Origin: Pantoea deleyi
Lineage (GTDB): Bacteria > Pseudomonadota > Gammaproteobacteria > Enterobacterales > Enterobacteriaceae
Direction of reading: 5' to 3'
Assembly (NCBI RefSeq): GCF_022647325.1
Contig: NZ_CP071405.1
Span: 3,596,001 to 3,660,000, forward strand
DNA: 64,000 bases
Positions within the stretch are counted from its first letter, which is position 1; each line of letters starts with the position of its first letter. Below the pieces are notes generated by a model, which searched no databases, had not been told where the DNA came from, and saw only the letters and a program-made list of their open reading frames with translations. Positions 1,192 through 62,076 of the stretch are shown one piece after another. Position numbers and translations under genes: made by a program.

Positions 1192-1227
1192 ATTAATTGA
1201 TTTTTCTCACTTTGTTAAGGAAAAAAA

Positions 1228-3089: not shown

Positions 3090-3093
3090 ACCA

Positions 3094-3912
3094 ATGTTCG
3101 ATACAATTTTGTCCCGCATTTATGAAGCTATTCACTGGTCGATGAGCGACAGTGATGGATTGTCCACGGATTTCTACTACCGAGTGAAAGCGATCCGCCA
3201 AGACCTTTTGGTAATGTATAAAACTAATGTCACCGAATGCCAGGATTTCTTACGTCAGAACGAGGAAGCTTTTCGCCAGTTAGATGAAAAGATCATTACT
3301 TATGAAAAGCAGCATGAAACCACTATATCCCAACTGATGAGCGGTCAGTCCCAGTTGAGCGATGAGGCTTTAGAGGAAGCACTGCAGAGTAAAGAAACCT
3401 TTATTGAGCTTTATCGCTCGCTCTATTTTGCTGAACGCAGGCTGCTGACGAAAGATCCGCAGCACCTTTGCCATGTTGGCTGTGGGCCAATGCCAGCGTC
3501 TATCCTGATGTGGATGAAATACACCGCGGCTAATATAACGGCGATAGATTTTGACGGGCAAGCAATTGCCTGCGCAAAGGTAGTATTTGAACAGTGGCGT
3601 CATACCAAAAATATTCCGGCTGATCGTGCGAATTTTCTTACCCTGCCTGGGGAAGAGGTGGACTACCGTAATATGGATGTGATTGTGATTTCTGCTTCCA
3701 TCCTTAATAAGGAAAACGTTTATGCCGCGATTCTGGCCACTGCTAACCGCGAGGTTACGGTCATTGAACGCACCCCTAATTTCCTTTATAACCAGGCTTT
3801 CACAACACCTGCAGGGTTCGAAGCATTTCGTCTCGGAGGGGAGGCGCGCGATAACGTTAATCTTCAATCCTATCAATTCACACCACTTTCGGGAGTTACC
3901 CATGGAAAATGA
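3094..3912 (+). CDS. Nicotianamine-synthase-like SAM-dependent enzyme
   Basis: This 272-residue protein has a helical N-terminal half (coiled-coil-like around residues 45-100) followed by a Rossmann SAM-binding domain with motif HVGCGPMPASILMW (about 127-140) and NITAIDFDGQAI. The GxGPxP form of the loop and the overall length resemble nicotianamine synthase and the staphylopine synthase CntL, which transfer the aminobutyrate part of SAM rather than methyl. I infer an aminobutyrate- or methyl-transfer reaction. The start at 3094 lies 4 bp after the adenylating enzyme stop; a longer in-frame start at 3022 would overlap that gene heavily and is less likely. It overlaps the next gene by 11 bp. 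Confidence 0.6.
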   Translation: MFDTILSRIYEAIHWSMSDSDGLSTDFYYRVKAIRQDLLVMYKTNVTECQDFLRQNEEAFRQLDEKIITYEKQHETTISQLMSGQSQLSDEALEEALQSKETFIELYRSLYFAERRLLTKDPQHLCHVGCGPMPASILMWMKYTAANITAIDFDGQAIACAKVVFEQWRHTKNIPADRANFLTLPGEEVDYRNMDVIVISASILNKENVYAAILATANREVTVIERTPNFLYNQAFTTPAGFEAFRLGGEARDNVNLQSYQFTPLSGVTHGK

Positions 3913-4963
3913 TGTGCTTGACCGCTACGACCTTGACAATAATACACTGTTCATTCGCGAGGAAAACATTTTGCAGTTGGCGCACAGCCTTCACTATTTG
4001 CAAAATGTATGGTTTACACTTAGCGGCGAGGTGCTATCTCTGACAGAGATGGACAGACGCGTTGCGATCGCCAGCGAAGCGCTGCGCCAACAGGAGCGTG
4101 TGGCGCGAATTGCGTCAACGTGGAAGTCACTTCAGAACGTGATCCAGCTGGACGTCATTCAGCGCTTTATGCTGCTAATAATGCAAAGCGAGCCACATGT
4201 TGCCGACACATCATATAGCTGTGAAGCGGATAGGCTGCAGCATGAATTGACCACCGTACTTTTGCTTCCCTGGCTTATAGAACTGGCCCGCAACCCGCAG
4301 AAAATATGTTTGCTGCCCACGCTTAGTAGCTGTCAGGCTTACAGTCGCTGGTTCAGCAGCACACTCAGCGAATACCAGCCACAGGAGAACGATATCAGCT
4401 ATATGATGTCACTGCTGCTGGGGGGGTTTGGCATCGTTGCACCAACAACAGCAACGGTACGATTTATTGCAAGCACAAAAAATAGCCTGAATTATGCGTT
4501 GATTGGCGCACTTTGCGCCGCTGGTCCTGCTCATCTGGGCGCCTGCCAGCGTGTCACGACGTTGCTAAGCTCTCTAGGCGATACACTGGAGCAAAGTGTG
4601 AGTGCAGCCGCTGAGGTTTACTGTGCCAACCGTCCTTGGCCGGGATTTGGGCATCCGGTGATGCCGCGCGATACTCGCGTCGATGCGTTCTTCGAACACT
4701 ACACGCATGGATTTGGCAAGTATCAGGCTTTGTCAGAGCATATCAGTGCACAGAGCGGCGTTAACCCAAATGTAGATTACCTGATAGGTAGTGCCTGCAG
4801 TCGGTGGCACGTAGCTCCTGAGGTTGCAGTGCTGGTCTTCTTCGTTTGTCGAGTACCGATATTGCTGGGGCACTACCGTTTGCGTTATCACACGCACTCG
4901 TTTGGTATGAGTTCCAGTGAATTACGCGACAAGTACAAAGCGCTGCCAAAACACTGGCTATAA
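3902..4963 (+). CDS. Citrate-synthase-like condensing enzyme
   Basis: This 353-residue protein has the citrate synthase signature residues in the right order: a His in GPAHLGACQRV (His211, matching the HGGAN histidine), a second His in PGFGHPVMPRDTR (His251) and an Asp in NPNVDYLIGSA (Asp292). This suggests an aldol-type condensation of an acyl-CoA with an oxoacid, giving a citrate-like tricarboxylate or an alkylated homologue. It is shorter than GltA (about 430) and divergent at the N-terminus, so the substrates are probably not acetyl-CoA and oxaloacetate. The ATG at 3902 is preferred over one 180 bp upstream inside the previous gene. It is followed after 8 bp by the hotdog-fold gene. Confidence 0.75.
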   Translation: MENDVLDRYDLDNNTLFIREENILQLAHSLHYLQNVWFTLSGEVLSLTEMDRRVAIASEALRQQERVARIASTWKSLQNVIQLDVIQRFMLLIMQSEPHVADTSYSCEADRLQHELTTVLLLPWLIELARNPQKICLLPTLSSCQAYSRWFSSTLSEYQPQENDISYMMSLLLGGFGIVAPTTATVRFIASTKNSLNYALIGALCAAGPAHLGACQRVTTLLSSLGDTLEQSVSAAAEVYCANRPWPGFGHPVMPRDTRVDAFFEHYTHGFGKYQALSEHISAQSGVNPNVDYLIGSACSRWHVAPEVAVLVFFVCRVPILLGHYRLRYHTHSFGMSSSELRDKYKALPKHWL

Positions 4964-4971
4964 GGGACGAT

Positions 4972-5694
4972 ATGGAAAACAAGTTCCTAACAATATGTTC
5001 ACCGCTTGATTCAGCAGCTACCGCGAGCGCAAAGCTAACGCACTGGAAAGGCTATAAAAACCATCAGAGCGTTAGCCTATTGCTGGAAGCAATACATCAG
5101 TTCGCTGTACGTTACGCAACCTCACAATTCCCATGCACGCCTGCGCAGCGATATTTGCCAGCAATGATAGAATATTTTGAGAGTGAAACGGAATTGACTG
5201 AAGAGCAATTAGTGCTGGAAGGCGATATTGAGATTCAGCACGTTAGCGTGCGTGTTATTTGCCGTGCCTGGTCGGATAACAGCCGCGATCGGCTGGTGGC
5301 TGAGGCTGCAATGATTGTTCATCCTGTATCACTGCCAATAAAGTTCACCTCGCCTGCTGCAGAAGATTCGGCGATTCCGTTATGGGAGATCCTTAGTCAA
5401 AATACGAAGTATTGCGAATTCCGACTCAATGGTAGCAACCCTTTATTTAGCGAGCACTTCACAGGCAACCCGGTGTGCCCAGGCTCACTTCTGATAGACT
5501 TACTGCTCTCAACACTGCTACACCCTACTAAGCGACAGACCTTAAAACTGAAAAAGGTAAAATTCCTCAGAGCAGTTCTTCCTGAAACAATATATCGCCT
5601 GACGCTCGGCTCGGCTGAGGGCTCTCAGACGAACACCTTTATCATTACCGCTGAAAAAGGTGAACGTCATGTCAGTGGCAGTTATTTGTTATAA
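4972..5694 (+). CDS. Hotdog-fold FabZ/FabA-like protein
   Basis: This 240-residue protein has a C-terminal half with the FabZ/FabA dehydratase pattern SEHFTGNPVCPGSLLIDLLL (residues about 161-180), where the family consensus is GHFPxxPVxPGVLxIE. The His of HF is kept, but the later Glu is replaced by Asp (LLID). The N-terminal half shows no clear motif and may be a degenerate second hotdog. It may dehydrate or hydrolyse an acyl thioester in the pathway. The start follows the citrate-synthase-like stop by 8 bp, with an AAGGGA ribosome-binding site overlapping that stop. Whether it is catalytic is uncertain. Confidence 0.65.
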   Translation: MENKFLTICSPLDSAATASAKLTHWKGYKNHQSVSLLLEAIHQFAVRYATSQFPCTPAQRYLPAMIEYFESETELTEEQLVLEGDIEIQHVSVRVICRAWSDNSRDRLVAEAAMIVHPVSLPIKFTSPAAEDSAIPLWEILSQNTKYCEFRLNGSNPLFSEHFTGNPVCPGSLLIDLLLSTLLHPTKRQTLKLKKVKFLRAVLPETIYRLTLGSAEGSQTNTFIITAEKGERHVSGSYLL

Positions 5695-5706
5695 AAAGGT
5701 GGCGTT

Positions 5707-6306
5707 ATGAATCGTCTGTTTAAAGTCGTCCTGTCTTTTGTTCCGTGGAGCGTTTACTCATGGGTGATGAATACATCATTATCCTTTCGCGATAAGTTTA
5801 CACTGTGGTGCTTGCTATTTATCTTTATTGTCACAATTAACCGCCATCTATTGCTGCAAGGAGAGGCAATTACACTCGCGAACCTATTCAGCTTTGTTTT
5901 TATTTTCGTGAACTATCAGTTTAATCTGATACCGCTGCTACTGCGCTATCCGGCCAGCCTATGTTATCTATTGCTGGCGCTAGTTGCTGGGGGTAGTCTA
6001 ATTCTAAAAAAACCTTTTACTATAAAGTTTGCAGGGGATTCTTTGCCGGAAGACAAGAAGCGCCATATAATATTTTACCTAATTAATCGAAATATCACGA
6101 TGGTCTGGCTGGGAGTTTTCATTATCAACTGCGCGCTGAATTTTCACTATAGCTGGTCACTAAATCTTAGGCTTGTATCTTTATCTCTAGTTATACTGGC
6201 ACTTCTGGCTTCACATTATTTCCCAAAGATAATGCGTGATCACTACAGAAAACGTTTTCAATCTTCCGCCACCTCTTTTCCATACCAAGATAACCGAGGA
6301 AAATAA
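5707..6306 (+). CDS. Small polytopic membrane protein of the metabolite operon
   Basis: This 199-residue protein has about five hydrophobic segments (near residues 30-50, 55-75, 80-97, 130-148 and 152-170), with a polar loop around KKPFTIKFAGDSLPEDKKRH and a basic C-terminal tail. I do not recognise a functional family. The loop loosely resembles uncharacterised inner-membrane proteins carrying a PFT-xx-(Y/F)A motif. It follows the hotdog gene by 12 bp with a strong AAAAGGTGG site, and is followed directly by another membrane protein. A role in self-protection or transport of the operon's product is plausible but unproven. Confidence 0.6.
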   Translation: MNRLFKVVLSFVPWSVYSWVMNTSLSFRDKFTLWCLLFIFIVTINRHLLLQGEAITLANLFSFVFIFVNYQFNLIPLLLRYPASLCYLLLALVAGGSLILKKPFTIKFAGDSLPEDKKRHIIFYLINRNITMVWLGVFIINCALNFHYSWSLNLRLVSLSLVILALLASHYFPKIMRDHYRKRFQSSATSFPYQDNRGK

Positions 6307-7355: not shown

Positions 7356-8234
7356 TTAGAAGCCGCGGTAATGAGGCAAGTATCCCCATGTTTTTGAATG
7401 CTCTAAATCGAATAAGTACTTTGCAGAATCAGAGCTTAAATAACTATAGGCTTCTTCATACAATAATTCGACTCCTTTGTCATTAATGGTAATATTTGAA
7501 ACAGGGAATTGAATAATGCCAGTAGACGAACGGTTAATTGCAATCCATTCCTCGCCTTCCATCTGATCGCTTGGGAGGGTGAGGTAAGAATACAATATAT
7601 CTTCTATTGGGATATTGAAGTTCAGAGATATGGAGCCGTAGCCGCCTTTATCATTAGCGTCGGTGAAAGAATTTGCCACATCCATCTGTAGAGGTATTTT
7701 TTCGTAACCAAGGATATTTGCTGATGCTTTATAAAACATCAGCAAGCTACTATAGTTCATTCCATTAATACCGAATTTAGATACTCTGATTCCTTTACTT
7801 AAATGATGTGGTCTTGCTGTGCAACGAATGTCGCGCCTTAAGTTAACATGAGTAACTCCTGCGGAATTTAAAAGCTTTTGTTTATTTTCGTAGATTTCAC
7901 ATAGCTCATCAATGATTTCTTTTTGTTGTAACTGGCTTAGAGATGCTAATAACTCTTCAACATTGCCATCATTCCTAAAGCGGGAATAGATCCTGTCATT
8001 TTCAATAGGTAATTTAAGGCCGTAAAATAATGCTGAAATGAACTTCAATAATATTGCATACCCGTTTCCTTTTTTACAGCAAAAGCCAGTGATAAATTTA
8101 TATTGATCTGTTTTGCTTCCATAACCAATGCAAGCAGCAAGGATTTCATTTCCTATGCGAATCTTTGGATTAACCAGGCTTCTATCCAGCTCAAAGGTTT
8201 TAAATGATTCCATTTCCATTCCAGTCCAGTTCAT
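7356..8234 (-). CDS. Uncharacterised AT-rich orphan protein, possible ADP-ribosyltransferase-like fold
   Basis: This 292-residue protein has no signal peptide or membrane segment. The central part contains THVNLRRDIR, and about 80-100 residues later comes GGYGSISLNFNIPIEDILYS followed by MEGEEWIAINRSS. The arrangement of an early Arg, a beta-rich middle and a late ExE-type motif (GEEW) is loosely like mono-ADP-ribosyltransferases, but the middle Ser-Thr-Ser motif is not evident, so this is speculation. The gene is clearly AT-richer than the ICE backbone, stands alone and faces away from the next plus-strand gene at 8448. The start could be the ATG at 8234 or one a few codons inside (8219 or 8213). 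Confidence 0.6.
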   Translation of the reverse strand: MNWTGMEMESFKTFELDRSLVNPKIRIGNEILAACIGYGSKTDQYKFITGFCCKKGNGYAILLKFISALFYGLKLPIENDRIYSRFRNDGNVEELLASLSQLQQKEIIDELCEIYENKQKLLNSAGVTHVNLRRDIRCTARPHHLSKGIRVSKFGINGMNYSSLLMFYKASANILGYEKIPLQMDVANSFTDANDKGGYGSISLNFNIPIEDILYSYLTLPSDQMEGEEWIAINRSSTGIIQFPVSNITINDKGVELLYEEAYSYLSSDSAKYLFDLEHSKTWGYLPHYRGF

Positions 8235-10610: not shown

Positions 10611-12026
10611 TCAGTTGCCTCCCGGCTGAGGCTGGCTCATCTGGCTGAAACCCTGGTCCTGGTTGCCGGCTTTCTGCTGCAGCTGATTGTTCTGGTTGCG
10701 TTCGCCCTGACGGTCAAGTGTGGTGAGCAGGCTGTTGCTGCTGATGGACCTGCGCAGCTCCATCTCATTGCGCAGCGCGTTGAGTTCGCGGTCGAGGGCA
10801 TCAACACGGCGGTCACCTTCGGCGATGGCCTCAGGCTGTTCGGCCGCGTTTGGCTCAGACTCACCGGTCATCAGCATGCGGCGCATGGTAAGTGCCGCCT
10901 CAACGGTGTCAGACATGGCCAGTTCACCCGCCAGTCTCTGCACCAGTGCGGCCCTGTCCGGATCATCACGCAGCGCCTGAATCACCCCGCGCGTGACAAC
11001 CAGACTGCCGGTTTTGAGTGCGGCCAGATTATCGGTCGTTGGCTGCAGCTGACCGTTAACCAGTTTGCTGAGCTGCTCAAGGTTGGCTCTGGTGGCGTCT
11101 TCCAGCACTGGTGAGAAGCCGGTGCCGGCAACGGTGCTGCCCGGCTGGTTGTCGGCACCGCCGCTGGCACATTCGCTGGTTTCACGGCAGGTCCGGATAG
11201 AGCGGTCGCCGAGTACTTTCACAACCGCCGCAGCCGCTTCATCAGAGGACTTGTAGCGCTGGCAGACCGTCCCGTTACAGCCGGACGACCCCACGCTGCC
11301 GTTGCTGGTCACCGGCAGGCTGTTCATCATGTTGTAGCCGGCTTTTGCCAGGTCGCGGGTAGGCTGAATCGCCTGCTGTCCCTTGCCGCCGCGCTTCTGG
11401 CCACCGACCCAGGTGACACCTTCTTCCCCGGTGGCCTTCTGCAGCTTCTGATCGCTCGAAACCGCATCGCCGCCGCTTGATGAGACGATGTCTTTATACT
11501 CTTCAGACACCGCAGCCTGCTGCCACTTACTGCCCATGGTGTAGTCGGCCAGCTTCTTCGACATGTTCTGGCAGTTCATCTGCGCCTTATCGAAATTCAG
11601 GCCCGCCTGCAGCACGCCGTTGGTGAGCATTTCATACAACCCCGGATTCGCTCGCTGAATGGCCATTGCCGGCATGCTCATCACCGCGCCGGTCGCCCCC
11701 TGAATGACGTTGCCCATCAGGTCCTTATATCCGCTGGTGATGCCGTTAAGCTGATTACCGACCGTGGTTTTCAGGTCAAAGTTTCCGCACATCAAATCGC
11801 TGCTCCAGCCGCCGTCCAGTCCGAGCCGCGACATGTTGCTGCGGGTCGACGGCGGCGAAATGACCGAGCCGCCGCCGATGGAATAGAACAGCCCGTCGTT
11901 GATGGCACCGCTGACGCCGGCGCCCTGTGAGGAAAGCGTGGTATCGAGGGCAAGTGACGGCATCGCCAGGGAAAGGAGTAACGCGCCCGAGGCCACGCGC
12001 AGGTTCTGCTTAATTAAGGTCATCAT
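10611..12026 (-). CDS. TIGR03755 family ICE transfer protein (TraH-like position)
   Basis: This exported protein of 471 residues has a signal peptide at residues about 1-27 (MMTLIKQNLRV... then LLSLAMPSLA, cleavage before LDTTL). Scattered cysteines (LMCGNFD, AQMNCQNMS, GCNGTVCQRY, RTCRETSECAS) suggest disulfides, and the C-terminal part is coiled-coil/Gln-rich (RNEMELRRS ... QNNQLQQKAGNQDQG). It fits the TIGR03755 family (PFL_4711), which occupies the place of TraH in MPF-G operons. The start at 12026 has AAGGA just upstream, overlapping the preceding stop; a much longer in-frame extension to 12200 lies inside the upstream gene and is rejected. Confidence 0.8.
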   Translation of the reverse strand: MMTLIKQNLRVASGALLLSLAMPSLALDTTLSSQGAGVSGAINDGLFYSIGGGSVISPPSTRSNMSRLGLDGGWSSDLMCGNFDLKTTVGNQLNGITSGYKDLMGNVIQGATGAVMSMPAMAIQRANPGLYEMLTNGVLQAGLNFDKAQMNCQNMSKKLADYTMGSKWQQAAVSEEYKDIVSSSGGDAVSSDQKLQKATGEEGVTWVGGQKRGGKGQQAIQPTRDLAKAGYNMMNSLPVTSNGSVGSSGCNGTVCQRYKSSDEAAAAVVKVLGDRSIRTCRETSECASGGADNQPGSTVAGTGFSPVLEDATRANLEQLSKLVNGQLQPTTDNLAALKTGSLVVTRGVIQALRDDPDRAALVQRLAGELAMSDTVEAALTMRRMLMTGESEPNAAEQPEAIAEGDRRVDALDRELNALRNEMELRRSISSNSLLTTLDRQGERNQNNQLQQKAGNQDQGFSQMSQPQPGGN

Positions 12027-12037
12027 GCTGTGTGTCC

Positions 12038-13003
12038 TTATGAAAAGTCGGTGCTGTAAAGGAAGGTCTGGCCACGTCGCCTGCAGCAGCTGTAAGGCTG
12101 CCAGAGCGCCCAGGCGTAATCGCCGCTTTCCGCCGTCTGGCCACCCGTATCCGGAAACACCGCGCAGCTCCGGGACAGCTGCGGGGAAAGCCGCTGCCAC
12201 TTATGATTTTGTGTGCCGGTATTTTCGGTAGCGGGGCCCGGTGGCCAGTAACCCGGCGACCGCTGACCCCTGAGCGGGTTATAGACGTGCAGCTGTCCCT
12301 CGCGGGTGATGATGTCGGCCACGCGCTGAACCACCACGGCCGCCGATTTGTAGCTGTCGGTCTCCGTCACGAAGCCGCTGCGGGGATAAACGTTGCCCCA
12401 CATCTCACCACCGGGCGTGCTGCCGATTTCGCGTTTCCCGGGTATCAGCGCTTCCGGATAGAACGACTCCGGCACGCCCGTCCGCCATGCCAGCGCATCC
12501 AGGGCGCTGACGAAATACGGCACGAACGGCGTGGCTGCGGAGCGGCATGAGTAGCCCGGCACCATGCCGCCGATGAGCGACGTCGCCGGGTGGCCATACG
12601 CATCGCCGTAATAGAAGTGCAGGTTCTGCTTGCGCATGCCCGGGGCCTTCATCTCCTGACGGCCGCCGCCTGCAGGCACGCCGGCGAGACCGCCGGACAC
12701 CAGGCTTTCAGCGCCGCCGGCCGTGGCACTCACGGCTGACATTTCGGTCCAGGGATTGTCGCCCGGACTGAGGTAGGCGGACACGACCGCTTCAGGAATA
12801 TAGTGAGTGACCTTGACCGAGGTTTTAACCGAGCAGCCAAAGGGCGTACAGAGCAGCCAGTAGCAGATGCCGCTGATACGCCAACTGATACAGTCCGGAC
12901 TCATGGCGCCGGAGACCAGGCTCGCCGTGTTCACGCTGGCGAGGGTGCCACTGCAGGTAAACAGCGTGGCCAGCATCAGGCGGCGGGGGCGGGAAAGGCG
13001 CAT
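12038..13003 (-). CDS. TIGR03756 family ICE transfer protein (TraU-like)
   Basis: This exported protein of 321 residues has an N-terminal signal region (RRLMLATLFTCSGTLASV) and a TraU-like, Cys-rich body: SPDCISWRISGICYWLLCTPFGC near residues 38-60 and CAVFPDTGG / YSCCRRRGQ near the C-terminus. TraU family proteins act in the periplasm in mating-pair stabilisation and DNA transfer. The start is ambiguous. The ATG at 13003 lies two bases after the TIGR03757 stop, whereas a GTG at 13009 has better spacing from GGAG; the two differ by two residues. The downstream gene starts 12 bases after this stop. Confidence 0.8.
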   Translation of the reverse strand: MRLSRPRRLMLATLFTCSGTLASVNTASLVSGAMSPDCISWRISGICYWLLCTPFGCSVKTSVKVTHYIPEAVVSAYLSPGDNPWTEMSAVSATAGGAESLVSGGLAGVPAGGGRQEMKAPGMRKQNLHFYYGDAYGHPATSLIGGMVPGYSCRSAATPFVPYFVSALDALAWRTGVPESFYPEALIPGKREIGSTPGGEMWGNVYPRSGFVTETDSYKSAAVVVQRVADIITREGQLHVYNPLRGQRSPGYWPPGPATENTGTQNHKWQRLSPQLSRSCAVFPDTGGQTAESGDYAWALWQPYSCCRRRGQTFLYSTDFS

Positions 13004-13005
13004 GT

Positions 13006-13413
13006 TCACGGCTGTTTCTCCCGCCAGGCATCGAGTTTTGCCCGGGCCGCGGCGACGTCGGTGGTACCGTAAACCACCCATTTATCGTCAAACACCACGG
13101 CGGGATACTTTTCCAGCCCCAGTGACCAGGCGTGCGCAACGCCGGCATAGCTGCCCGCCAGCGCCTGCTGACGCTGACGGAACGCCGGTGAGGCAATGAC
13201 CGCCCGGGCCTGCTGCTCAGCCTGAGCCGGATTCATGGAAAGCGGCCCGAAAAGTTCAGACTGAACGCGGTCGGGTGCATCCAGTTCGGTGACGGTGACG
13301 TCAGGGCTGAGCTCGCCCGTAACGGGGTACGCATGGTCGGTGTAAATCACGGTGCCGGCATGGGCACCGGCCGTGAGGAACAGGACGATAAGGCTGCTGA
13401 GGGGGATTTTCAT
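13006..13413 (-). CDS. TIGR03757 family ICE transfer protein (TrbC/TraW-like position)
   Basis: This exported protein of 135 residues has a signal peptide (MKIPLSSLIVLFLTAGAHA, cleavage before GTVIYTD), then a thioredoxin-like/TrbC-like layout ending in KYPAVVFDDKWVVYGTTDVAAARAKLDAW. The KYPAVVFD..VVYG pattern is typical of TIGR03757 (PFL_4709). It is probably a periplasmic accessory factor for pilus assembly. The ATG at 13413 has GGGAG nine bases upstream; an alternative GTG three codons earlier is less well placed. It is the first gene of the small block TIGR03757-03756-03755-membrane-traG, cut off from the rest of the transfer genes by the GHKL/CHAT island. Confidence 0.8.
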   Translation of the reverse strand: MKIPLSSLIVLFLTAGAHAGTVIYTDHAYPVTGELSPDVTVTELDAPDRVQSELFGPLSMNPAQAEQQARAVIASPAFRQRQQALAGSYAGVAHAWSLGLEKYPAVVFDDKWVVYGTTDVAAARAKLDAWREKQP

Positions 13414-13620
13414 GGGTAACACTCCCTGAGTGGATAATGCCGTCAGGGTGCGTTTTTCGCGTGGAAGGGTCAGCCGTTAACTCTTAATTAAGAAATGATA
13501 ATTCTGCACGTCATGAGTCAGTGTGGTGACGGTGTTAATAGAATTGCGGAATCTGGTTACACAGGAAAAAGAATCTGAGCCGGTAAAAAAACAGCTAACA
13601 CTCTGCAGTGTGGAGCGCAT

Positions 13621-13662
13621 CCGGACGCAGCATTATCAGTTGCGTCCGGGCCCCCGGGGCCC
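13621..13662. terminator. Tandem GC-rich hairpins downstream of the GHKL gene
   Basis: Two adjoining inverted repeats are present. CCGGACGCA ... TGCGTCCGG (13621-13629 with 13641-13649) is followed by a 15-bp near-perfect palindrome with arms GGGCCCC/GGGGCCC at 13648-13662. In minus-strand direction they come just after the stop of the GHKL/metallopeptidase gene, so they probably end its transcript. In the plus direction the last arm is followed by ATGTTTTT, so it could also work that way. Confidence 0.5.
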
Positions 13663-13675
13663 ATGTTTTTATCTC

Positions 13676-15655
13676 TTAATCCCGCCCGTCGCCTTCATCA
13701 GCCTGCCGCCATTTAAGATATTCCAGCTCACGGACAAATCCGGCAGCAGCGGCATTGCGCCTAATGCTCCATTGCGTCTCGCCTTCCCGCATGAGAGGAA
13801 GCCATTCATCCGGAACAGGGTTCTCCGGTGGCCCGTCAAAGTCCTGCCTGTGCCGGTCTTCAGCATCAGCGTGCAAGGGGACATGCCTGGCAAACCACAG
13901 GTCAGTGTTTTCCCATGCCTGCATGCCCCATGCGAGCAGCGCTTCCTCATCAGAATCAGTCACACTGGCAAGGAACTCAACAGCCCAGTCATTCAGATTA
14001 TCTTCTGTTGCCCCAGGTAAAAGCGATAAGTAATGCGTTCTGCAGGCGTTCAGCCAGAGCTGAGCATCGGACTCCGGCTGCTCATCCTCAGGGTGGCTGG
14101 TCGTGCCTTCGTCAGTTGCGTACCATTCTTCCATTGACTGCTGCTCCAGGAGGCGTGCAGCATGATTTTCACGCGTCTGCTCAATACCCGCAGCCACCAC
14201 GCTGTTCCAGTCAGTTTCTGCAGGCGCTGCCATACCCGCGCCGTTCAGCTGCTGATTGAGGAAGTTCAGCCAGGATGTATCCTCCGGTTCGGGTTGAGCG
14301 CTGACGGCTTCTGTCATTCCCGCCTCGCTGATAACGCCCGGCAGTCCTTTTTTCTCCCGCCCGGTACTGGCACGATCGGCCAGGTAACGTTCCCGCCAGA
14401 CCGTCCCGTTAGCGCGTTTACCCTCTGCCTCCAGGCTCGTTGTGTACTTCATCAGCCAGACGTGCATGTAACGCTGCCTGTCAGGAGCGCATGACATACT
14501 GATGTCATGAAATCGCTGGTAAAAGGCCTCGTCATGCCCGCAATCCATACTGTCACCCTCATGCGCAGCCTCATGCTCCGTCAGGCTGAACAGCAGGCTG
14601 GCAGTCTGCAGCGCGTCAGACTTCAGCCTGCGCACGATATCGATGTTATAAGCAATATAGGTCTCTCCGTCCGTCCAGGCATCGGCAGACGTGGACTCAC
14701 CCAGCAGGATCTGGAAGCGGATACCGCCATAACTGCGTGACTGATAGCCTGCTTCCCCCCCCGAACAGATGGCAGCATATTGAGCAAGGCACCAGCGCAG
14801 TGCTGTCCATGCACGTCGCGTTTCCTTATCGAGCTGTTTCTCACTGATCATCTGCGTGCGGTCGAGAAAGTTTTCGCTGAGGGTCTCAAAGTCGATCAGC
14901 GCCAGGTCGTCTCGCCAGCCAGCGCCCCAGCGCTGCTGCCGGGGTAAATGCTCCCGGTACGCCTGAAGGTTTACGCGCACGCGGCTCAGACACTCCATGA
15001 ACTCATCCGGCTCGTAACAGCCGAAGCGGGAAAGCGTGACGGGGTGCACCACAGGGGCAATACCGGCACGGGCGATGATTTCCCCGCGAGGAACATCGCG
15101 TGCATACCGCGCGAGGGTGAAGCAGTTTTTATCTGTCGCCGCCGGATAGTAGCGGCACTTGCGGATGAAGTGCTCAAGCGTGACGTGACGTTTACCGGGC
15201 AGGAGCGTGATGACCTCTTCACCGTTCATCAGTTTCTGCAGATCCCCTTCTCCGGAGAGCAATGCGCGGGCCGTATTCTCCCGTCGTGCTTCTGTTTTAC
15301 GGTGATGCCCCTGATTGTCAGAAAAATCGGCGGCGAGCTGACCAAACCGTGCGGCAACGGCTTTCCAGACCGGGCAGGTCTTGCGCAGGATTTCGGTACG
15401 CGAAACGTTCAGTGCGAGAGGCTTTTTACTGACAATGAGACCACCGGTGCCCCAGATATGCCCCGGATCGTGACGCACAAGCACACCCTGATTGTAAACT
15501 GACAGCGCACCATCCTCCCGCAGGCGATACCAGGCCATATCATCCTCAGCATCCCACTTTTCCAGCGCCGGTTTACGCGTTATAACATTGCCGTCCAGAG
15601 TTACCGGGACTGACGTGTAACGGACCTGGTCACGTATTTCCTGAATACAGGACAT
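13676..15655 (-). CDS. C-terminal part of a GHKL ATPase with an HExxH zinc-metallopeptidase domain
   Basis: This is a 659-residue frame. Its start (RYTSVPVTLDGNVI ... LSVYNQGVLVRHDPGH ... NVSRTEILRK) looks like the S5-like transducer domain that follows the ATPase domain in MutL/Hsp90-like proteins, so it is really the continuation of the gene at 15601-16095. Further on it has LFSLTEHEAAHEGDSMD followed by GHDEAFYQRFH: His361-Glu362-x-x-His365 plus His374. This is a gluzincin/SprT-like layout in which two His bind zinc and Glu is catalytic. The C-terminal 250 residues are acidic and low in motifs. An in-frame stop seven codons before the ATG blocks direct fusion, so a frameshift or coupled re-initiation (AGGAG four bases before the ATG) must explain the arrangement. 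Confidence 0.65.
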   Translation of the reverse strand: MSCIQEIRDQVRYTSVPVTLDGNVITRKPALEKWDAEDDMAWYRLREDGALSVYNQGVLVRHDPGHIWGTGGLIVSKKPLALNVSRTEILRKTCPVWKAVAARFGQLAADFSDNQGHHRKTEARRENTARALLSGEGDLQKLMNGEEVITLLPGKRHVTLEHFIRKCRYYPAATDKNCFTLARYARDVPRGEIIARAGIAPVVHPVTLSRFGCYEPDEFMECLSRVRVNLQAYREHLPRQQRWGAGWRDDLALIDFETLSENFLDRTQMISEKQLDKETRRAWTALRWCLAQYAAICSGGEAGYQSRSYGGIRFQILLGESTSADAWTDGETYIAYNIDIVRRLKSDALQTASLLFSLTEHEAAHEGDSMDCGHDEAFYQRFHDISMSCAPDRQRYMHVWLMKYTTSLEAEGKRANGTVWRERYLADRASTGREKKGLPGVISEAGMTEAVSAQPEPEDTSWLNFLNQQLNGAGMAAPAETDWNSVVAAGIEQTRENHAARLLEQQSMEEWYATDEGTTSHPEDEQPESDAQLWLNACRTHYLSLLPGATEDNLNDWAVEFLASVTDSDEEALLAWGMQAWENTDLWFARHVPLHADAEDRHRQDFDGPPENPVPDEWLPLMREGETQWSIRRNAAAAGFVRELEYLKWRQADEGDGRD

Positions 15656-16095
15656 CCGCTCCTGACTGGAAAGCGGCTATACCAATCACCGCTGATGGTG
15701 CACCCTGCCTGAAGCGCCTCTGGCTCTGTCAGCTCATACTCATATCCCATTACCCTGGTGTCAACCTCCATCTGCCAGCGCTGCGAGCGCCAGACCGTCC
15801 GGGCATGCGCCATAATCTGGCCACGGCCCAGGCGAAAGCGACCATAGGTGGCATCCCCCTCACGGTGTGGCGTGCCGAAGCGGCCAAAATAACGTTTCAC
15901 ATCATCATACGACGTAAAACCCCGGCCGTCGTCACAGCAGCTAAAGCCCCCCGGGGTAATGTTCAGCGTAATGGCCCCCGCGCCGGCATCGACGCTGTTC
16001 ATGATGAGTTCAATGAGGGCTTTGGCCACAGAGCCGGCCTGGCTGTAGATGATGTGGTGAATGATTTCGGGGTCTAGCTCAAAGGGATGTCGCAT
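15601..16095 (-). CDS. GHKL (Hsp90/MutL-type) ATPase domain, N-terminal part of a split gene
   Basis: This 164-residue frame has a full set of GHKL nucleotide-binding motifs: N-box ALIELIMNSVDA (Glu29 and Asn33), G1 box DDGRGF (55-60) and G2-like GRFRLGRGQ (85-93). After CTISGDWYSRF the frame loses family-like sequence (PVRSGCPVFRKYVTR...) and stops, while the expected continuation appears in another frame at 13676-15655, overlapping by 55 bp. I read the pair as one ancestral gene of about 800 codons with a frameshift near 15620-15680. The start has AGGAG seven bases upstream. It is transcribed away from the CHAT gene at 16720, sharing the intervening AT-rich region. Confidence 0.7.
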   Translation of the reverse strand: MRHPFELDPEIIHHIIYSQAGSVAKALIELIMNSVDAGAGAITLNITPGGFSCCDDGRGFTSYDDVKRYFGRFGTPHREGDATYGRFRLGRGQIMAHARTVWRSQRWQMEVDTRVMGYEYELTEPEALQAGCTISGDWYSRFPVRSGCPVFRKYVTRSVTRQSR

Positions 16096-16719
16096 CAGGA
16101 TGCTCCTGCAAGGGGTTCAGGACCATTTTCCGGATGCGGGTTATGGGTTAAATAAGGAAGTCTTAATGCACAACTGAAAGAATATCCATTATGAGCAATT
16201 CGAAAATAAAATGCTGATAAGAATAATAAAATTGGATAACAGCACTGCAGGATCACTGGAAAAAAGAGACCTTTGGGACCAAACCGCACGCCGCTGGCAG
16301 ACTGAAAATGATGACACTGATGACACTGATGACACTGATGACACTGATGACACTGATGACACTGATGACACTCATGGCGCACGGCAACGCTACAATAAAG
16401 GATACTGAATTATGGATATCAAATACTTTTTAACGCATCAGGGATAAACTGTTTGGCTGAGATGAATCACACCTTTGTGATCACACATATCAAGAGTTGC
16501 CTTGCATGTATGATGAAACTTTTAAAATCATGTTCTAAGAAAATATATTGAAAATTTGCACCCCAAGAACATTTCAAATTTACTACGCCCAGTGCATGCC
16601 ATCGACAACAGCTGGCCTTATATAAAGTTTATCAGATTTTTCATTCGACATGGAAATAAATAGTCATCGCTGCTATTTTAAAGTTTAATCTACCCTTAGA
16701 TTGTAAAGTGAGGTTTTTT
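16096..16719. promoter_or_regulatory. AT-rich divergent intergenic region between the GHKL and CHAT genes
   Basis: This 624-bp gap lies between two divergently transcribed genes, so both promoters should be inside it. It contains the 7-copy GATGACACT array at 16310-16372. The half next to the CHAT gene (16400-16710) is strongly AT-rich and holds many possible -10 boxes, so I cannot choose one. The CHAT start is preceded by GTGAGG at 16708-16713. Open frames across the array (for example a Cys-His-Gln repeat on the minus strand) are products of the repeat, not genes. Confidence 0.5.
16310..16372. repeat. VNTR: seven perfect tandem copies of GATGACACT
   Basis: The 9-bp unit GATGACACT occurs seven times without error. 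It starts 215 bp upstream of the GHKL start and about 350 bp upstream of the CHAT start. Perfect arrays of this kind change copy number by slippage. Because it lies in the shared upstream region, copy number could alter expression of one or both genes. Confidence 0.95.
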
Positions 16720-18855
16720 ATGGAGCTACTACAAGAGAAAGGTGCTATACATAAAGTTGTTATAATGCCAACAACAGGAGAGTGGACATTTCTTCAGGGT
16801 TTCGATATTGGCATTCTAAATCCTGAAGTAGCTGAAATCCTCTTCTTGTTAAGCAAGGCACCCAAAGAATTAAAGGATATTTTTGTTTCCGAATCACATG
16901 GGGTGGATGATACGCTAAATGCACTAAACCCAATCACTCTTATCTCTAAAGAAAATATTGAAAATATACCTAATATTTATCATGTGCCATTTTGTTTGAT
17001 ATTTTGTGTTAAAGAAGACTTTTTATACGTTAGCAAAATCGCCAAAAATTTCGAAGTACCACCAATAATATGCTGCAATAACAAATCTGCTGACATACGC
17101 TTAAATGAAATAAATAGCATTTTTTCATTCGATAAAGCTTTGTACTCTAGGTTGAAGTTCTTAGAAAGCATGATACGAAAATCAACTGGTGAAAGAAAAA
17201 TATCAAACAACCTTAAAAGAAGAGGATTTTTGTTTAAAAATTCAAATTGGAGATCTACTCTTAACAATGCGACCTTGCCAAATGAACTGCTTATGGAATC
17301 CATTGGCTATATGTTATCACGGCCAAAAAGAATTAAAGATGGAAGCAGCAAAAGAGAGTTTATAAATATAATAATTGACAGCGTTGACGCTTACATCAAC
17401 TGCACGAAGGAATTAAATATAGATCCTCCTGTGGAAATTTTATTATACGCTCCAGGAATGCATTCTTTTCTGTATGATAAAAACCATGACCTCTATGAAT
17501 TGGTCGGTAAAGAATTGAATTTAGATGAGAAAAGATTTTTGATTAACGGCGTCCTTAGAAATCCTGCTTATTCAGGCATCAGGGTCGAACTTGAGGAACA
17601 TAAAACAAAGGATTTTTTCAAAAATCCGATATTCAAATATTTCATTTCACTTAGGCGTTCTGAAATGCGATTAACAACGGCTGCAATCTCTTTGCTTAGT
17701 TTACATAAAAAAATACCTGCTATTAGAATGCCAAATTCAATAAATCATCATGGCAATATACTAAAAAGAATCGAAGAGCTAGCCGTCAAGATTGGAATAT
17801 ATGCCCCTGACTTTATAAGTACTGCCAAAGTATTTAACACGGTAATACGAAGAACTATGGGGAATAAGTTACGATCATATATAACTGATAATTTCAATGA
17901 CATATCATTCGTCTGCGATGTGCCTTTAGACTGGGTTAGGTTCAGGGGGCTGCCTGTTATGTTTAGCCATGAAATATCCAGGATAAACACAACGCCGGGG
18001 AATATTCTATTACAGAACGCATCATTCTTCCCACGTACTGTGATAAATGCATCAGAACTAAAAAAGGTTTTGGTCATTCGCTCTTTTCAACCAGATGATC
18101 CTTTAAAGTTTATATTGGAAACTGCATTAGATACTTTTAGGGTGCATATGCCTGACTTATCTTGTGAAATTATTGATGTAAATTCAAATGCTGAATTTAT
18201 CGAGGCGTTGAACCAATATAATGGATACTTGCTTGTAATGGATTGCCATGGAGATCATGGAGGTGACATAGGACATGGTTGGTTAATCATTGGTGATGAG
18301 AAAATTGACACATGGCATCTCAATAAGGTTGCCAGAATCCCTCCAGTCGTCATACTTAGTGCTTGTCTTACGTCTGCACTTAGTGGTTCGCATGCATCAG
18401 TAGCTAATGGTTTTATGGTAAGTGGCGCATTAAGCGTCATAGGTACTTTACTTCCTGTAAATGCCATAGACTCTGCTGTTTTCGTTAGTAGATTAATTTT
18501 CAGGCTTTATGACTTTCCATCTGCCATACCAAAGGACTACTCTCACGTTAATATGAGGCTTCTTTTATCTATATTTCTTAGGATGTCTTATGCTACCGAT
18601 TTAATAAGGGGTTTAGAACGTGAGGGCTTAATTGCTAAAGATTCTTGGCAAGAGGATGCCATTGATATCAATACGTATATTAATATGCTAAATCAGGATT
18701 GGTTCAGTTACACAATTGAAAAGCTGGCGAAGTTAACTGATTTAGAAGAGGTAGAGGTTCTTAATATCATTGACGAGAAATTATATATAACAGAGACCAT
18801 GTGTTACAGCCAGATAGGATTTCCAGAATCAATTAGCATTAAGCTAAAGGAGTAG
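16720..18855 (+). CDS. CHAT-domain caspase-like protease
   Basis: This 711-residue protein has a C-terminal third with the CHAT (caspase HetF associated with TPRs) pattern. A strand ends in YLLVMDCHGDHGG with the catalytic His (residue 510), and VVILSACLTSALSG carries the catalytic Cys (549), followed by the VANGFMVSGALSVIGTLLPV stretch seen after the Cys in CHAT proteins. The N-terminal 440 residues have no recognised domain and no clear TPRs. CHAT proteases act in bacterial defence, for example as activators of gasdermins or in Craspase. The gene is strongly AT-rich compared with its neighbours, indicating recent transfer. The ATG at 16720 fits the GTGAGG site better than a GTG at 16708. 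Confidence 0.75.
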   Translation: MELLQEKGAIHKVVIMPTTGEWTFLQGFDIGILNPEVAEILFLLSKAPKELKDIFVSESHGVDDTLNALNPITLISKENIENIPNIYHVPFCLIFCVKEDFLYVSKIAKNFEVPPIICCNNKSADIRLNEINSIFSFDKALYSRLKFLESMIRKSTGERKISNNLKRRGFLFKNSNWRSTLNNATLPNELLMESIGYMLSRPKRIKDGSSKREFINIIIDSVDAYINCTKELNIDPPVEILLYAPGMHSFLYDKNHDLYELVGKELNLDEKRFLINGVLRNPAYSGIRVELEEHKTKDFFKNPIFKYFISLRRSEMRLTTAAISLLSLHKKIPAIRMPNSINHHGNILKRIEELAVKIGIYAPDFISTAKVFNTVIRRTMGNKLRSYITDNFNDISFVCDVPLDWVRFRGLPVMFSHEISRINTTPGNILLQNASFFPRTVINASELKKVLVIRSFQPDDPLKFILETALDTFRVHMPDLSCEIIDVNSNAEFIEALNQYNGYLLVMDCHGDHGGDIGHGWLIIGDEKIDTWHLNKVARIPPVVILSACLTSALSGSHASVANGFMVSGALSVIGTLLPVNAIDSAVFVSRLIFRLYDFPSAIPKDYSHVNMRLLLSIFLRMSYATDLIRGLEREGLIAKDSWQEDAIDINTYINMLNQDWFSYTIEKLAKLTDLEEVEVLNIIDEKLYITETMCYSQIGFPESISIKLKE

Positions 18856-19087
18856 TTTTTTATTCATAGTATTAATCAAAATGGGTTTGTTTTTTATAAA
18901 ACCAACTCAGAAAATTTAGTCAATCATCTACATTGAATTAACTCGTTTTGATTTTAATTATCTACTGCATACGATTTAAAGGGTATGAGTGATGCGCAGC
19001 ATAAGTTGCGTTCAAAAAGCTCTGTAGGGTTATGAATGGAATTAGTAAATATAACTAACGCGGGCTCTATGCCGCCCGCACCCGCAG

Positions 19088-19142: not shown

Positions 19143-19547
19143 TTAATGGCTCATTCCTGCTTCGGTGGCGCGATCTATCTCCTTCAGCACCCACAGCATA
19201 TCAGTGGCATCAGGCACGCAGATATGCCAGCGAATGCCGGTTTTGTAATCCCCATCTGCCGGCCATTGTGTATTGCCCGTGACGGTGATGAGAATGTCCA
19301 GCACCTTATTATTTGCACCGGAAAGACGAACAGCCGTGCAGCTGCGGCGCCCGACCCGATGCGGATAGACCGATACCAGCAGGGGGTGTTCAAGACGCTG
19401 ACATATTTCTTCCCGAAGCTGCAGTATAGCAAGGTTATCCGTCTCGCCGACCGAAGCCTGTCCCAGCGGTGGAACGGTAAAAATGACAGTGGCAACAAAA
19501 GCCTTGTCCTGGACAACCCGTGGCGGCGCCATGGTCAGTTTTTTCAT
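19143..19547 (-). CDS. Hypothetical protein following the VirB4-like ATPase gene
   Basis: This 134-residue soluble protein (MKKLTMAPPRVVQDKAFVATV...) has ordinary ICE-like GC content and no signal peptide or membrane helix. Recognisable features are few: an alternating beta pattern and a C-terminal WHICVPDATDMLWVLKEIDRATEAG helix. It follows the VirB4-like gene by 11 bp, so it belongs to that operon and not to the CHAT island. I do not recognise the family. Its place directly before the variable insertion suggests it is the last backbone gene of this block. Confidence 0.6.
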   Translation of the reverse strand: MKKLTMAPPRVVQDKAFVATVIFTVPPLGQASVGETDNLAILQLREEICQRLEHPLLVSVYPHRVGRRSCTAVRLSGANNKVLDILITVTGNTQWPADGDYKTGIRWHICVPDATDMLWVLKEIDRATEAGMSH

Positions 19548-19558
19548 AAAATCCCCTG

Positions 19559-22363
19559 TCAGTAAATAAGACCACGACTCTCGTCAAGACGACGCGCAAC
19601 ATGGTAAACGGCCTCAAGTTCCGAGCATTTCAGTTCGTCCATAATGGCGCGGCGCTCTGCTTTTTCTTCTTTTTCAGTCATGCCCAGCGCCAGATAGAGG
19701 CTCGGCGGCACCGCCCTGAACAGCGCCTGCACCTTGCGCGACAGAATAACCCCCTCGGTATACTTGCGCGGCAGCTTGGTGGCAGAGAGCAGCATCGCCT
19801 TTTGCTCTTCATTAAGCGTTTTGAAACGGGCGATCTGCTCCACCTCTTCAGGGGGCATCACCAGACAAATCCACCACTCGGCCATGTTGAGCATCTTTTT
19901 TGACGTATCGGGGAAGTCGGCGAGGTTCTGCGTAAAAATCCACAGCCAGGTGCCTAACTTACGCCACATTTTGGCGATTTTAGTGGCATAAGGGCCCAGC
20001 AGCGGGTTGGTGGTGACGATATGGCCCTCATCAATGGGCACGATAATGTCCCTGTCGAGGTACTGGTCGCGCTCGGCGATGTTATTGATGGTGTTCAGCA
20101 GGGAGATAACTGCTACCGCCATCTGGGCCTCGTACCCTTCGCGGGCCAGCTGACCGAGATCGACAATCGTGACGTCGGCCTCCGGCCACGGAGTGCCAGG
20201 ACGGTTGAACAGGTCGCCTTCAAAGCCCTCCGTGAACATGCGCAGCGCCTCCGACATCTCCTCTGCGCGTGCGCGGCGGGCCGAAGTCCGCTTTTCGCGA
20301 CCGTCATCGCCCTGGCTGACGTCATGGGCAATGTCCTGCAGCGCAGACATCAGATCCCCGGGCAGCATCTGACGGGACTCTGCGTAAGCTTTCCGGGCCG
20401 CGTTCATGATAGCCTCGCGGATCATCCCCCGGTCGGCACGGGTCATTCTGGACTCTTCCGGGGCCTCACCGCCGGTAATCATCAGGCGGGCGGCAATTTC
20501 CATCTCGCCCAGAACGTCGCGTTCACCGTCTTCGTCCTCCTCGTCATCAGCGTCTGTTTCCGGTAAGTCGTCCTCACTGATGAGCAGCTCACCGGCCTTT
20601 GCCTTCATCAGCAGGTGCGAGTCACCAAAGGGGGCCAGCGACACCACTTTTCCGGGCTTGATGCTGACGCGGTGAACGCTGAGGCCCAGCGACGCACAGT
20701 AATCACCGTACAGGCCGAAGCTGTTACCCGCCTCAATCAGGAATATGCGCGATCGGTAAATGGCCACCATCTGCGAAAGCTTGTCCACCGCCGTGGCAGA
20801 CTTACCGGCACCGGTCGGGCCAAACAGCAACAGATGCGCGTTCTGAGTGCGGTCCTCTTTATTGAGCGGATCGACCGACAGCGGCCCGCCGCCCCGGTTA
20901 AAAAAGGTCAGGCCGTGATGGCCGGTGCCGGTATCGCGCCCGTAAACCGGTGCCATACAGGCAAAATGCTGGACAAACATCAGGCGCGTGTACCAGTTGT
21001 GCCGGTCGTGCTGCGGGTTAAAGCACATTGGCAGCGCCCGCATGTAGGTGCTGAGCGGGCCGATATCGTGTTCCGGGTTGACCGGCTCCAGCCCGCAATT
21101 CAGCAGTTTACTGCTGAGGTCAAGGTAGCGTTTGCTCAGCGCATCCTCGTCTTTACCTTTTATCAGCAGGGTAATGGCCGCCCGGTAAAGCTTGTGTTTG
21201 TTACCCAGATATGTGCGGGCCGTGGCGGCATCCTCGCGGGCACGCAGCGAATCCACATTTTCCCCCATTGAGTTGCGGCTCAGGCTGGCAAAGTTCGCCT
21301 CCAGCCTGTCCTGCGGCTGCACCACCAGGGTCATGGCCAGCACGGTGCCTTCTGGCAGCAGGTCCATAATAGCGTTGATGTTGTCGCCGCGCTTTACCTC
21401 GCCGGTGAGGTGGCCGGTCTGGGGGCGGGTGCGGAGCCGGGCAACCGGCACCGCCTTGTGCGCAATGCTGTCAAACCACCATATGCCCCTGTCAGCATCA
21501 CTGCGGGGACGGGTAAACCACAGGCTTTCGCTGAAGTCATTGAGCAGCGGAAGGTCGCCGGGTGCCTCGTCGCTGTGGCGGGCGCAGCGGTACAGCGTGG
21601 CCTTGTCCGTCCACTGGGGGGCCGGGTTGAACCAGCGCAGCAGCCAGTTGTGTATCTGCTCGCCGTTCTGTCGCACGGAACGGATGCCGGCACCGCTCAT
21701 TGCCGATGTCAGACGGTCGCAGACCTGATTCAGTAACACTTCCGGTGCCATCGGATCGCGATACGGCTTTTCAACCCAGCGGTAAACCACCATGCGCGTG
21801 CGACGGATTTGCCCGCGCCAGGGGGCACCGGTCACGGTTTCATCCACAAACAGGCCTTTTTCAGCCGCCACGTTTTTCAGGTGACGCTCCTGCTCGTTCA
21901 GCCAGGCCTCAGTGAAGGCCGTTCCCTGTGCCCGGGGTCTGACATAGCCTCTGATGGAATCCATGTACGCCGACAGATCGGAGTCGTCCTGACAGAAAAA
22001 CTGCACCACCCACTGGTGCGAGTCCAGCTCCGGGATGCTGTCCTGCAGGGCGTTCTCCACCACGTCGCGGATTTCCTCCAGGCGGGATTCAGGGCGGCCT
22101 TCGGTGCCGACGGGCGTCAGCTCATAAACCGCACCGACAGACACGCCGTCATCGAGCAGGATACACTGGTGTTCCGGCAGGTATTCCCCCCACGGAACGT
22201 GGTCAATAATGGAGGGGCCGGTGGCATACAGGCCCGACTCATCAGCATGCGTCAGGCGACCCTCGCGGGAGAGGGGCTCATGGCCATCAACCGAAAACGG
22301 CCCGTCACCGTGCTGATGCTCAGCCTGTGCTTCACGGCGGCGGCGAAAAAGACGAAAGGCCAT
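19559..22363 (-). CDS. VirB4/TraC-like conjugative transfer ATPase (TIGR03744, PFL_4706)
   Basis: This 934-residue ATPase powers assembly of the conjugative pilus and secretion channel at the inner membrane. Walker A is GPTGAGKS (residues 515-522), and a Walker B-like strand ends in IIVPIDEGHIV. The N-terminal half matches the non-catalytic VirB4 region, and MSEALRMFTEGFEGDLFNRPG is typical of TraC/VirB4. An acidic low-complexity stretch, DDLPETDADDEEDEDGE (about 599-615), is a family variation between the Walker motifs. It starts directly after the TIGR03751 stop with no gap. Confidence 0.9.
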   Translation of the reverse strand: MAFRLFRRRREAQAEHQHGDGPFSVDGHEPLSREGRLTHADESGLYATGPSIIDHVPWGEYLPEHQCILLDDGVSVGAVYELTPVGTEGRPESRLEEIRDVVENALQDSIPELDSHQWVVQFFCQDDSDLSAYMDSIRGYVRPRAQGTAFTEAWLNEQERHLKNVAAEKGLFVDETVTGAPWRGQIRRTRMVVYRWVEKPYRDPMAPEVLLNQVCDRLTSAMSGAGIRSVRQNGEQIHNWLLRWFNPAPQWTDKATLYRCARHSDEAPGDLPLLNDFSESLWFTRPRSDADRGIWWFDSIAHKAVPVARLRTRPQTGHLTGEVKRGDNINAIMDLLPEGTVLAMTLVVQPQDRLEANFASLSRNSMGENVDSLRAREDAATARTYLGNKHKLYRAAITLLIKGKDEDALSKRYLDLSSKLLNCGLEPVNPEHDIGPLSTYMRALPMCFNPQHDRHNWYTRLMFVQHFACMAPVYGRDTGTGHHGLTFFNRGGGPLSVDPLNKEDRTQNAHLLLFGPTGAGKSATAVDKLSQMVAIYRSRIFLIEAGNSFGLYGDYCASLGLSVHRVSIKPGKVVSLAPFGDSHLLMKAKAGELLISEDDLPETDADDEEDEDGERDVLGEMEIAARLMITGGEAPEESRMTRADRGMIREAIMNAARKAYAESRQMLPGDLMSALQDIAHDVSQGDDGREKRTSARRARAEEMSEALRMFTEGFEGDLFNRPGTPWPEADVTIVDLGQLAREGYEAQMAVAVISLLNTINNIAERDQYLDRDIIVPIDEGHIVTTNPLLGPYATKIAKMWRKLGTWLWIFTQNLADFPDTSKKMLNMAEWWICLVMPPEEVEQIARFKTLNEEQKAMLLSATKLPRKYTEGVILSRKVQALFRAVPPSLYLALGMTEKEEKAERRAIMDELKCSELEAVYHVARRLDESRGLIY

Positions 22364-62024: not shown

Positions 62025-62029
62025 TCGCG

Positions 62030-62053
62030 ATGCCCGGCTTAACCGTCGGGCAT
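62030..62053 (+). terminator. Stem-loop between fimbrial subunit and chaperone genes
   Basis: Arms ATGCCCG and CGGGCAT flank a 10-nt loop, without a T run, five bases after the subunit stop. Such hairpins lower read-through or stabilise the subunit mRNA so that subunit exceeds chaperone and usher. Confidence 0.7.
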
Positions 62054-62076
62054 AAACCCGAAGTCAGGAGGAAAAA

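Follow-up and report, generated by a model that had tools for sequence, protein, structure and literature searches.

Borvo beside a frame-broken GHKL-zincin gene in the cargo slot of an SPI-7-class conjugative element of Pantoea deleyi

The 64,000 nucleotides of Pantoea deleyi DNA analysed here ("the window": contig NZ_CP071405.1, positions 3,596,001 to 3,660,000, forward strand) hold, judging by NCBIfam profile matches, much of an integrative conjugative element (ICE) of the SPI-7/PFGI-1 class. Inside it lies an island of two opposed genes: a plus-strand gene for a CHAT protease, and a minus-strand gene, in two pieces, for a GHKL ATPase joined to an HExxH zinc peptidase (a zincin). A preliminary description of this DNA proposed the two as a candidate new defence module, while allowing that chance may have joined them. 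That false lead is now removed: the window holds Borvo riding on an ICE, and no new ATPase-protease system. The CHAT gene is identified by its sequence as BovA, the sole gene of the already described phage-defence system Borvo, and the GHKL-zincin gene, a gene of conjugative elements, stands outside Borvo. We hold with considerable confidence that these are two independent genes placed back to back in a slot of the ICE, the CHAT gene being Borvo. The more interesting half of the island is the GHKL-zincin family, widespread on conjugative plasmids and ICEs and catalytically conserved, which deserves to be followed up more than the pair does.

The CHAT gene and Borvo

The CHAT gene (16708..18855, plus strand; 715 amino acids from a GTG start) is matched nearly end to end by the BovA profile of PADLOC, PDLC03831 (714.9 bits, E 3.2e-215; residues 8-714 of 715 against profile positions 3-715 of 720); the N-terminus that had been called unknown is thus part of the described protein. 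PHROG 34827 matches residues 2-715. The Pfam CHAT model alone is weak on this gene (22.7 bits, just below the cut-off of 24), and a search of solved structures by sequence yields none that convinces (best E 0.49). Among 28 relatives (from a protein search in which 7991 candidates were scored) the nearest, at 92%, is from Pantoea agglomerans; since this nearest relative (P0121) has 711 residues, the length expected of a start at the in-frame ATG at residue 5 (16720), translation may begin there instead of at the GTG. Asp512, His514, Ser551, Cys553 and Thr555, with His514 and Cys553 as the catalytic pair, are invariant in all 29 rows of the alignment of the family, the window's protein included (alignment A4).

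BovA is thinly spread among the window's relatives. Within the order it is found at full length in two of 295 genomes (G000, and G110 with one internal stop), along with two short CHAT-only matches; the window's is the sole full-length copy among 369 genomes of the class and among 295 of the family, with one further short match in each set. Farther afield, 30 of the 5426 E. coli genomes searched carry DNA approximately 69% identical to the gene, coliphages cdtI and Ayreon encode a protein 67.7% identical to BovA, and distant relatives occur in eight plasmid records. An integrase adjoins the gene in all four annotated loci that were opened (two phages, two E. coli).

A published table that follows Millman et al. 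2022 places Borvo with CHAT protease (PMC10952713); a Borvo-like form of two genes has been tried in Streptococcus thermophilus (PMC12322248); and another account has phages escaping Borvo through mutations in the DNA polymerase gene, while counting the system as poorly understood (PMC11348598). Most likely, the N-terminal part of BovA would sense phage replication (the published escape mutants point to the phage DNA polymerase); sensing would release the CHAT protease; and the released protease would stop the phage, probably at a cost to the cell. Of the hint at phage defence in the preliminary description, then, the half that concerns the CHAT gene stands, as a system already described, and the half that concerns a new two-gene module does not.

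A variable slot in the ICE

The flanks of the island had been described as blocks of transfer genes; more exactly, they are ICE genes with TIGR03757 and TIGR03755 on one side and a TIGR03744 traC on the other. The left border is the gene for the TIGR03757 protein (13006..13422, minus strand; 128.7 bits, cut-off 73.2), beyond which lies that for the TIGR03755 protein (10611..12200, minus; 558 bits, cut-off 270). The right border (19143-22363) is made up of a 134-amino-acid ICE backbone gene (19143..19547, minus), found at the same position in seven ICE loci with GHKL-zincin, and the adjoining traC (19559..22363, minus), encoding a PFL_4706-type conjugative ATPase (TIGR03744, 1371 bits, cut-off 520.6). 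Also over curated cut-offs in the window are TraD, PilL2, ParB, SPI-7-type DnaB, topoisomerase III and the STY4528- and STY4534-family replication proteins; the profiles specific to the SPI-7/PFGI-1 class that exceed their cut-offs are TIGR03744, 03748, 03754, 03755, 03757 and 03764 and NF040582, NF040583 and NF040584.

BovA occupies a low-G+C segment (approximately 16185..19057) whose edges are defined by blastn comparison with Erwinia ICEs. The right edge of homology, running from traC, falls at 19057-19060 in four of four (L035, L036, L037 and L045), and the left edge at 16159-16184 in three of them, the match to L035 ending at the start of the GHKL gene (16095). Three further ICEs were compared (L025, L031 and L053), but they have diverged so far that the right edge cannot be seen in them. 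Stretches between the edges have a G+C content of 0.34-0.44, against 0.55-0.58 for the genes outside; the contrast in base composition between the two genes, already remarked on in the preliminary description, amounts to 0.355 (CHAT) against 0.578 (GHKL). Between the two genes lies a tandem repeat of TGATGACAC (16309..16376; 7.6 copies, 98% matches by TRF).

In the seven GHKL-bearing ICE loci (Erwinia, Brenneria and Pectobacterium) the slot, measured from the 134-amino-acid gene to TIGR03757, spans 3.5-7.4 kb with GHKL-zincin included, and its other content differs from one ICE to the next, as judged from a listing of open frames, seven cargo frames of which were scanned with Pfam and PADLOC. 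L025, for example, carries genes for a helicase (ResIII/DEAD) and for a DNA methylase, which also give partial PADLOC matches to the corresponding parts of several systems. Seventeen other genomes of the order supplied 18 further regions downstream of traC, their slot contents likewise listed by open frames; twelve share the gene order, the distance between the traC and TIGR03757 matches ranging from 0.02 to 13.7 kb (with TIGR03756 used in place of TIGR03757 in two of the twelve), and the other six have a different gene order and are not comparable. None of the 18 has a match to BovA or to GHKL-zincin. The content of the slot varies between ICEs; Borvo is therefore cargo in the variable traC-TIGR03757 slot of an SPI-7-class ICE. 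A system that the annotated loci opened had shown in coliphages and prophages is now placed there as well.

Two observations on the cargo of other elements are recorded in passing. In the Brenneria ICE L031, a 721-amino-acid protein (12639-14804 of that locus, plus strand) adjoins GHKL-zincin; it is possibly a restriction-like protein (its Mrr-type nuclease match is below threshold, and PADLOC gives none). In L076 and L078, ICEs of the same class as the window's, genes of about 1080 codons fill the traC-TIGR03757 slot, L078 having in addition, by eye, metabolic-looking frames.

Do the two genes form a pair?

That two opposed genes lie at this place was borne out, and all the motifs first noticed in them are confirmed: the GHKL boxes, the HExxH...GHDxxF zincin motif, and DCHGDHGG and LSACLTSAL of the CHAT domain. 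Are they, then, a single defence module, in which, say, an ATPase-driven sensor feeds a protease cascade? Their adjacency and divergent orientation in the window speak for it, as does the retention of catalytic residues in both families; mutated residues, which had been named as a ground for giving up the idea, were not seen in the relatives aligned (50 of 50 and 29 of 29 intact). The other such ground, that the two should mostly lie apart, is borne out by the survey of gene neighbourhoods. BovA is absent from all 45 GHKL-zincin loci (GTDB species genomes gave 42 and plasmids three; flanks fetched to at most 10 kb a side, several of the surveyed loci being short, the shortest 4.6 kb), and GHKL-zincin, the one possible partner that the survey covered, from all 16 BovA loci. 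The window's own genome, and any very near it, may be missing from the collections surveyed. In E. coli, blastn matches the zincin-bearing piece to none of 20,395 records, although BovA is present in the 30 genomes already mentioned. The eight plasmid records with distant BovA relatives are not among the 60 listed of the 110 plasmid records with GHKL-zincin. Weighing further against a module are the broken GHKL frame of the window (see below), the difference in G+C content and the homology edges that surround BovA. The survey of co-occurrence leads us to reject the pair as a module: because GHKL-zincin and BovA do not recur together, there is no new two-gene system to describe, and the proposal of one must be considered extremely improbable.

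The GHKL-zincin gene of the window is broken

The preliminary description had a single minus-strand gene at 13676-16095. It is not one open gene; it is two overlapping open frames in different reading frames. The first, of 164 codons (15601..16095, minus strand), is the 5' part and encodes the GHKL ATPase half (Pfam PF13589, E 5.8e-8), which is 50-81% identical to the relatives in the 42 GTDB loci (81% to L036). The second, of 659 codons (13676..15655, minus), is the 3' part and encodes the middle domain, the zincin (HExxH...GHDEAF) and a helical C-terminus. It has no Pfam match and is 81% identical to L036 and L037.

The break can be located. The stretch that runs from the Trp codon of a GxWY motif as far as the Gln codon of QEIRD is 41 nucleotides long in the window, and 42 nucleotides, or 14 codons, in all 37 relatives in which the pattern is readable (42 were compared, five of them unreadable); the frame of the window is accordingly shifted by a net -1. 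By reason of that shift, the gene as sequenced probably makes no full GHKL-zincin protein. Could it nevertheless be alive, the break being an error of sequencing or a programmed frameshift? Apart from the break, both halves look sound and resemble their Erwinia relatives closely, and a difference of a single base is typical of assembly error. Nevertheless, none of the 37 readable relatives is shifted at that place, which makes a programmed shift unlikely, and the broken or shortened frames of five further loci fit a dispensable gene or poor assemblies. We regard a living gene in the window as doubtful.

Those five are L045, L047, L048, L050 and L053; in L053 the neighbouring genes are broken as well, which suggests that its assembly is poor. 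The frame was scored by script as intact in 34 of the 42 loci, of which two, L020 and L024, lack part of the C-terminus; of the remaining eight, L014 is full-length and failed only the motif pattern, and in L044 and L049 the frame runs off the contig.

A family of conjugative elements

Intact relatives of the GHKL-zincin gene are single frames of about 800 codons, frequent on plasmids and ICEs. Searching with a plasmid-borne query brings out 478 relatives among 8000 scored candidate proteins; tblastn finds matches in 110 of 72,556 plasmid records, 54 of them covering at least 80% of the query; and there are 42 loci in GTDB species genomes whose hosts, according to record titles, include Pseudomonas, Xanthomonas, enterobacteria, Burkholderia relatives, Acetobacter, Acidithiobacillus and Paenibacillus. 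The 42 loci do not represent 42 independent events because some are near copies (L027-L029, on one plasmid record; L047 and L048; L016-L018); some are short. The gene was also considered, and rejected, as a phage gene: the 659-residue piece has no tblastn match in 50,697 phage records, and two exact-motif patterns, which miss distant forms, find nothing in IMG/VR. Among the open-licence PubMed Central papers listed by our searches, none describes the family.

The N-terminal part has an Hsp90-like ATPase fold; the Bergerat fold is present, and so are the N, G1 and G2 boxes. In the numbering of an intact relative (L037), the boxes are E29/N33, D55-G57-G59 and G90-R91-G92-Q93; these, together with His508, Glu509, His512, His521, Asp522 and Phe525 of the zincin, are invariant in all 50 proteins of an alignment of chosen relatives (alignment A3), and both active sites consequently look selected. 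Since the ATPase and zincin motifs are invariant there, and the CHAT motifs in A4, these motifs are far from chance; and because the catalytic residues are invariant in both aligned sets, each of the two families looks, as far as sequence can tell, enzymatically active by itself. HATPase_c_3 is the single Pfam match above cut-off in three intact relatives. A search with the GHKL profile gives no convincing solved structure (PMS2 is best, at E 0.091), and among solved structures the zincin part matches best, though weakly, Wss1 and proteases related to it. The family was rejected as a PADLOC defence protein: the window's N-terminal piece has only a 12-bit match to REase_II, and the intact L037 has none.

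Is GHKL-zincin perhaps a core transfer gene of this class of ICE? It does lie between ICE genes in the window and in seven other ICEs. Its distribution is hard to reconcile with such a role: the traC of the class is present in 19 of the order's 295 genomes, and a full GHKL-zincin match is found only in the window's own genome (a second match covers 77 residues at 32% identity), which marks the gene as accessory to the ICE class; and it is lacking in the 18 traC-downstream regions. A core role is very unlikely.

Neighbours and a possible function

A match to type IA topoisomerase lies near GHKL-zincin in 20 of the 42 loci (13-5755 bases away, counting matches within the fetched flank of at most 10 kb; the count is a raw one, not set against a base rate for random genes, and of the three topoisomerase queries two derive from L002 and L003, plasmid loci themselves found by way of the GHKL gene). 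These loci include Pseudomonas, Xanthomonas, Bordetella, Paraburkholderia, Acidithiobacillus and Paenibacillus (two of its five loci). The topoisomerases of these two Paenibacillus loci share no more than 25-28% identity with the Proteobacterial queries, so that the pairing is more than one recently moved block. Other neighbours are a single-stranded DNA-binding protein (SSB) in eight loci and ICE replication or partition genes in nine; 11 have none of those listed. Seven of the 42 have the traC-TIGR03757 slot as their context, and a topoisomerase is near in none of these seven. In the two Paenibacillus loci (L022 and L039), GHKL-zincin itself is 54-56% identical to the Chania protein P0116, across phyla.

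The fold and the topoisomerase III and SSB neighbours suggest that the family deals with protein-bound DNA while the element is being transferred or established. Most likely, in intact relatives, a clamp formed by the Hsp90/MutL-like ATPase would drive a zinc protease like those of Wss1, Spartan and ArdC, and the target would be proteins bound to the DNA of the element during transfer or establishment. We put forward this protease-on-DNA mechanism for the family tentatively, at less than even confidence. A more specific version is quite unlikely as it stands: GHKL-zincin as an undescribed ATP clamp with a Wss1/Spartan-like protease which, beside topoisomerase III and SSB, strips protein-DNA adducts from incoming DNA, the adducts, covalent or merely tight, being relaxase, trapped topoisomerase or host defence proteins, and the machine being broken in the window.

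The main rival to a role on protein-bound DNA is that GHKL-zincin would be to conjugative elements what RIIA is to phages: a protein of counter-defence in which an Hsp90-like ATPase is joined to a C-terminal part that varies, in this case a protease that destroys or disarms a defence protein of the recipient. Many RIIA proteins are among the Foldseek matches to viral models (Q6U9V1, E 1.8e-9, and others); a review counts RIIA orthologues, with their GHKL domain and variable C-terminus, among poorly understood counter-defence proteins (PMC7824862); and the zincins of conjugative elements include the antirestriction protein ArdC (PMC7213743). What detracts from the comparison is that these matches have TM-scores of only about 0.24-0.27 (E values reach down to 1.8e-9, with rmsd from 8 to more than 30) and may reflect the shared GHKL fold alone, that a known defence target is lacking, and that the intact relative has no PADLOC match. 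We rate this counter-defence role as rather unlikely, only a little below a protease acting on protein-bound DNA, which is the reading that we prefer.

Other features of the window

At 127-6303 (plus strand) the end of an RND efflux pump gene (AcrB-like) and methyltransferase, AMP-binding, citrate-synthase-like and FabA-like genes stand in a row that looks like a small biosynthetic cluster beside the transfer genes of the ICE. A low-G+C gene at 7356-8234 (minus) encodes a protein of 292 amino acids for which Pfam and NCBIfam give nothing above a curated cut-off and PADLOC no match. A STAXI RNA (RF01728, 118.7 bits; 49390-49550, minus) lies between the STY4534-family and topoisomerase III genes of the ICE, and genes for a fimbrial subunit and a PapD-type chaperone are at 61440-62757 (plus), beyond the DnaB/ParB end of the element.

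Comparison with known systems

GHKL-zincin shares its ATPase boxes and an N-terminal plus middle-domain fold with the GHKL ATPases Hsp90, MutL and the type II topoisomerases, but differs from them in leading into a zincin and a helical tail. Some database records of its relatives bear the name MutL, an identity rejected here: the NCBIfam scan of the window's N-terminal piece gives TIGR00585 22.3 bits against a cut-off of 180. An HExxH zincin on a conjugative element is what GHKL-zincin has in common with ArdC, reported to be Spartan-like (PMC7213743), and with the polyvalent proteins of conjugative elements, which are described as carrying zincins (PMC5512222). It differs from ArdC in its N-terminal partner, a GHKL ATPase in place of the ArdC-N domain, to which the three intact relatives have no Pfam match at E 1. 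Identity to the DNA-protein-crosslink proteases Wss1 and Spartan is 9-16%, with Foldseek matches that are not significant. With T4 RIIA it shares a GHKL domain followed by a long C-terminal part, and Foldseek matches, though of low TM-score.

The element of the window shares with SPI-7/PFGI-1-class ICEs traC, TraD, PilL2, ParB, DnaB, STY4528, STY4534 and TIGR03755/03757, and differs in its traC-TIGR03757 slot, filled as it is by Borvo and a broken GHKL-zincin gene. With Borvo, the CHAT gene shares the full-length profile match, the His/Cys dyad of CHAT and carriage, as what looks like a single gene, by a mobile element. That genomic islands can bear Borvo is already known from a Pseudomonas hotspot that includes it (PMC12629846); the copy in the window, approximately 68% identical to those of the coliphages, travels on an SPI-7-class ICE instead of a prophage.

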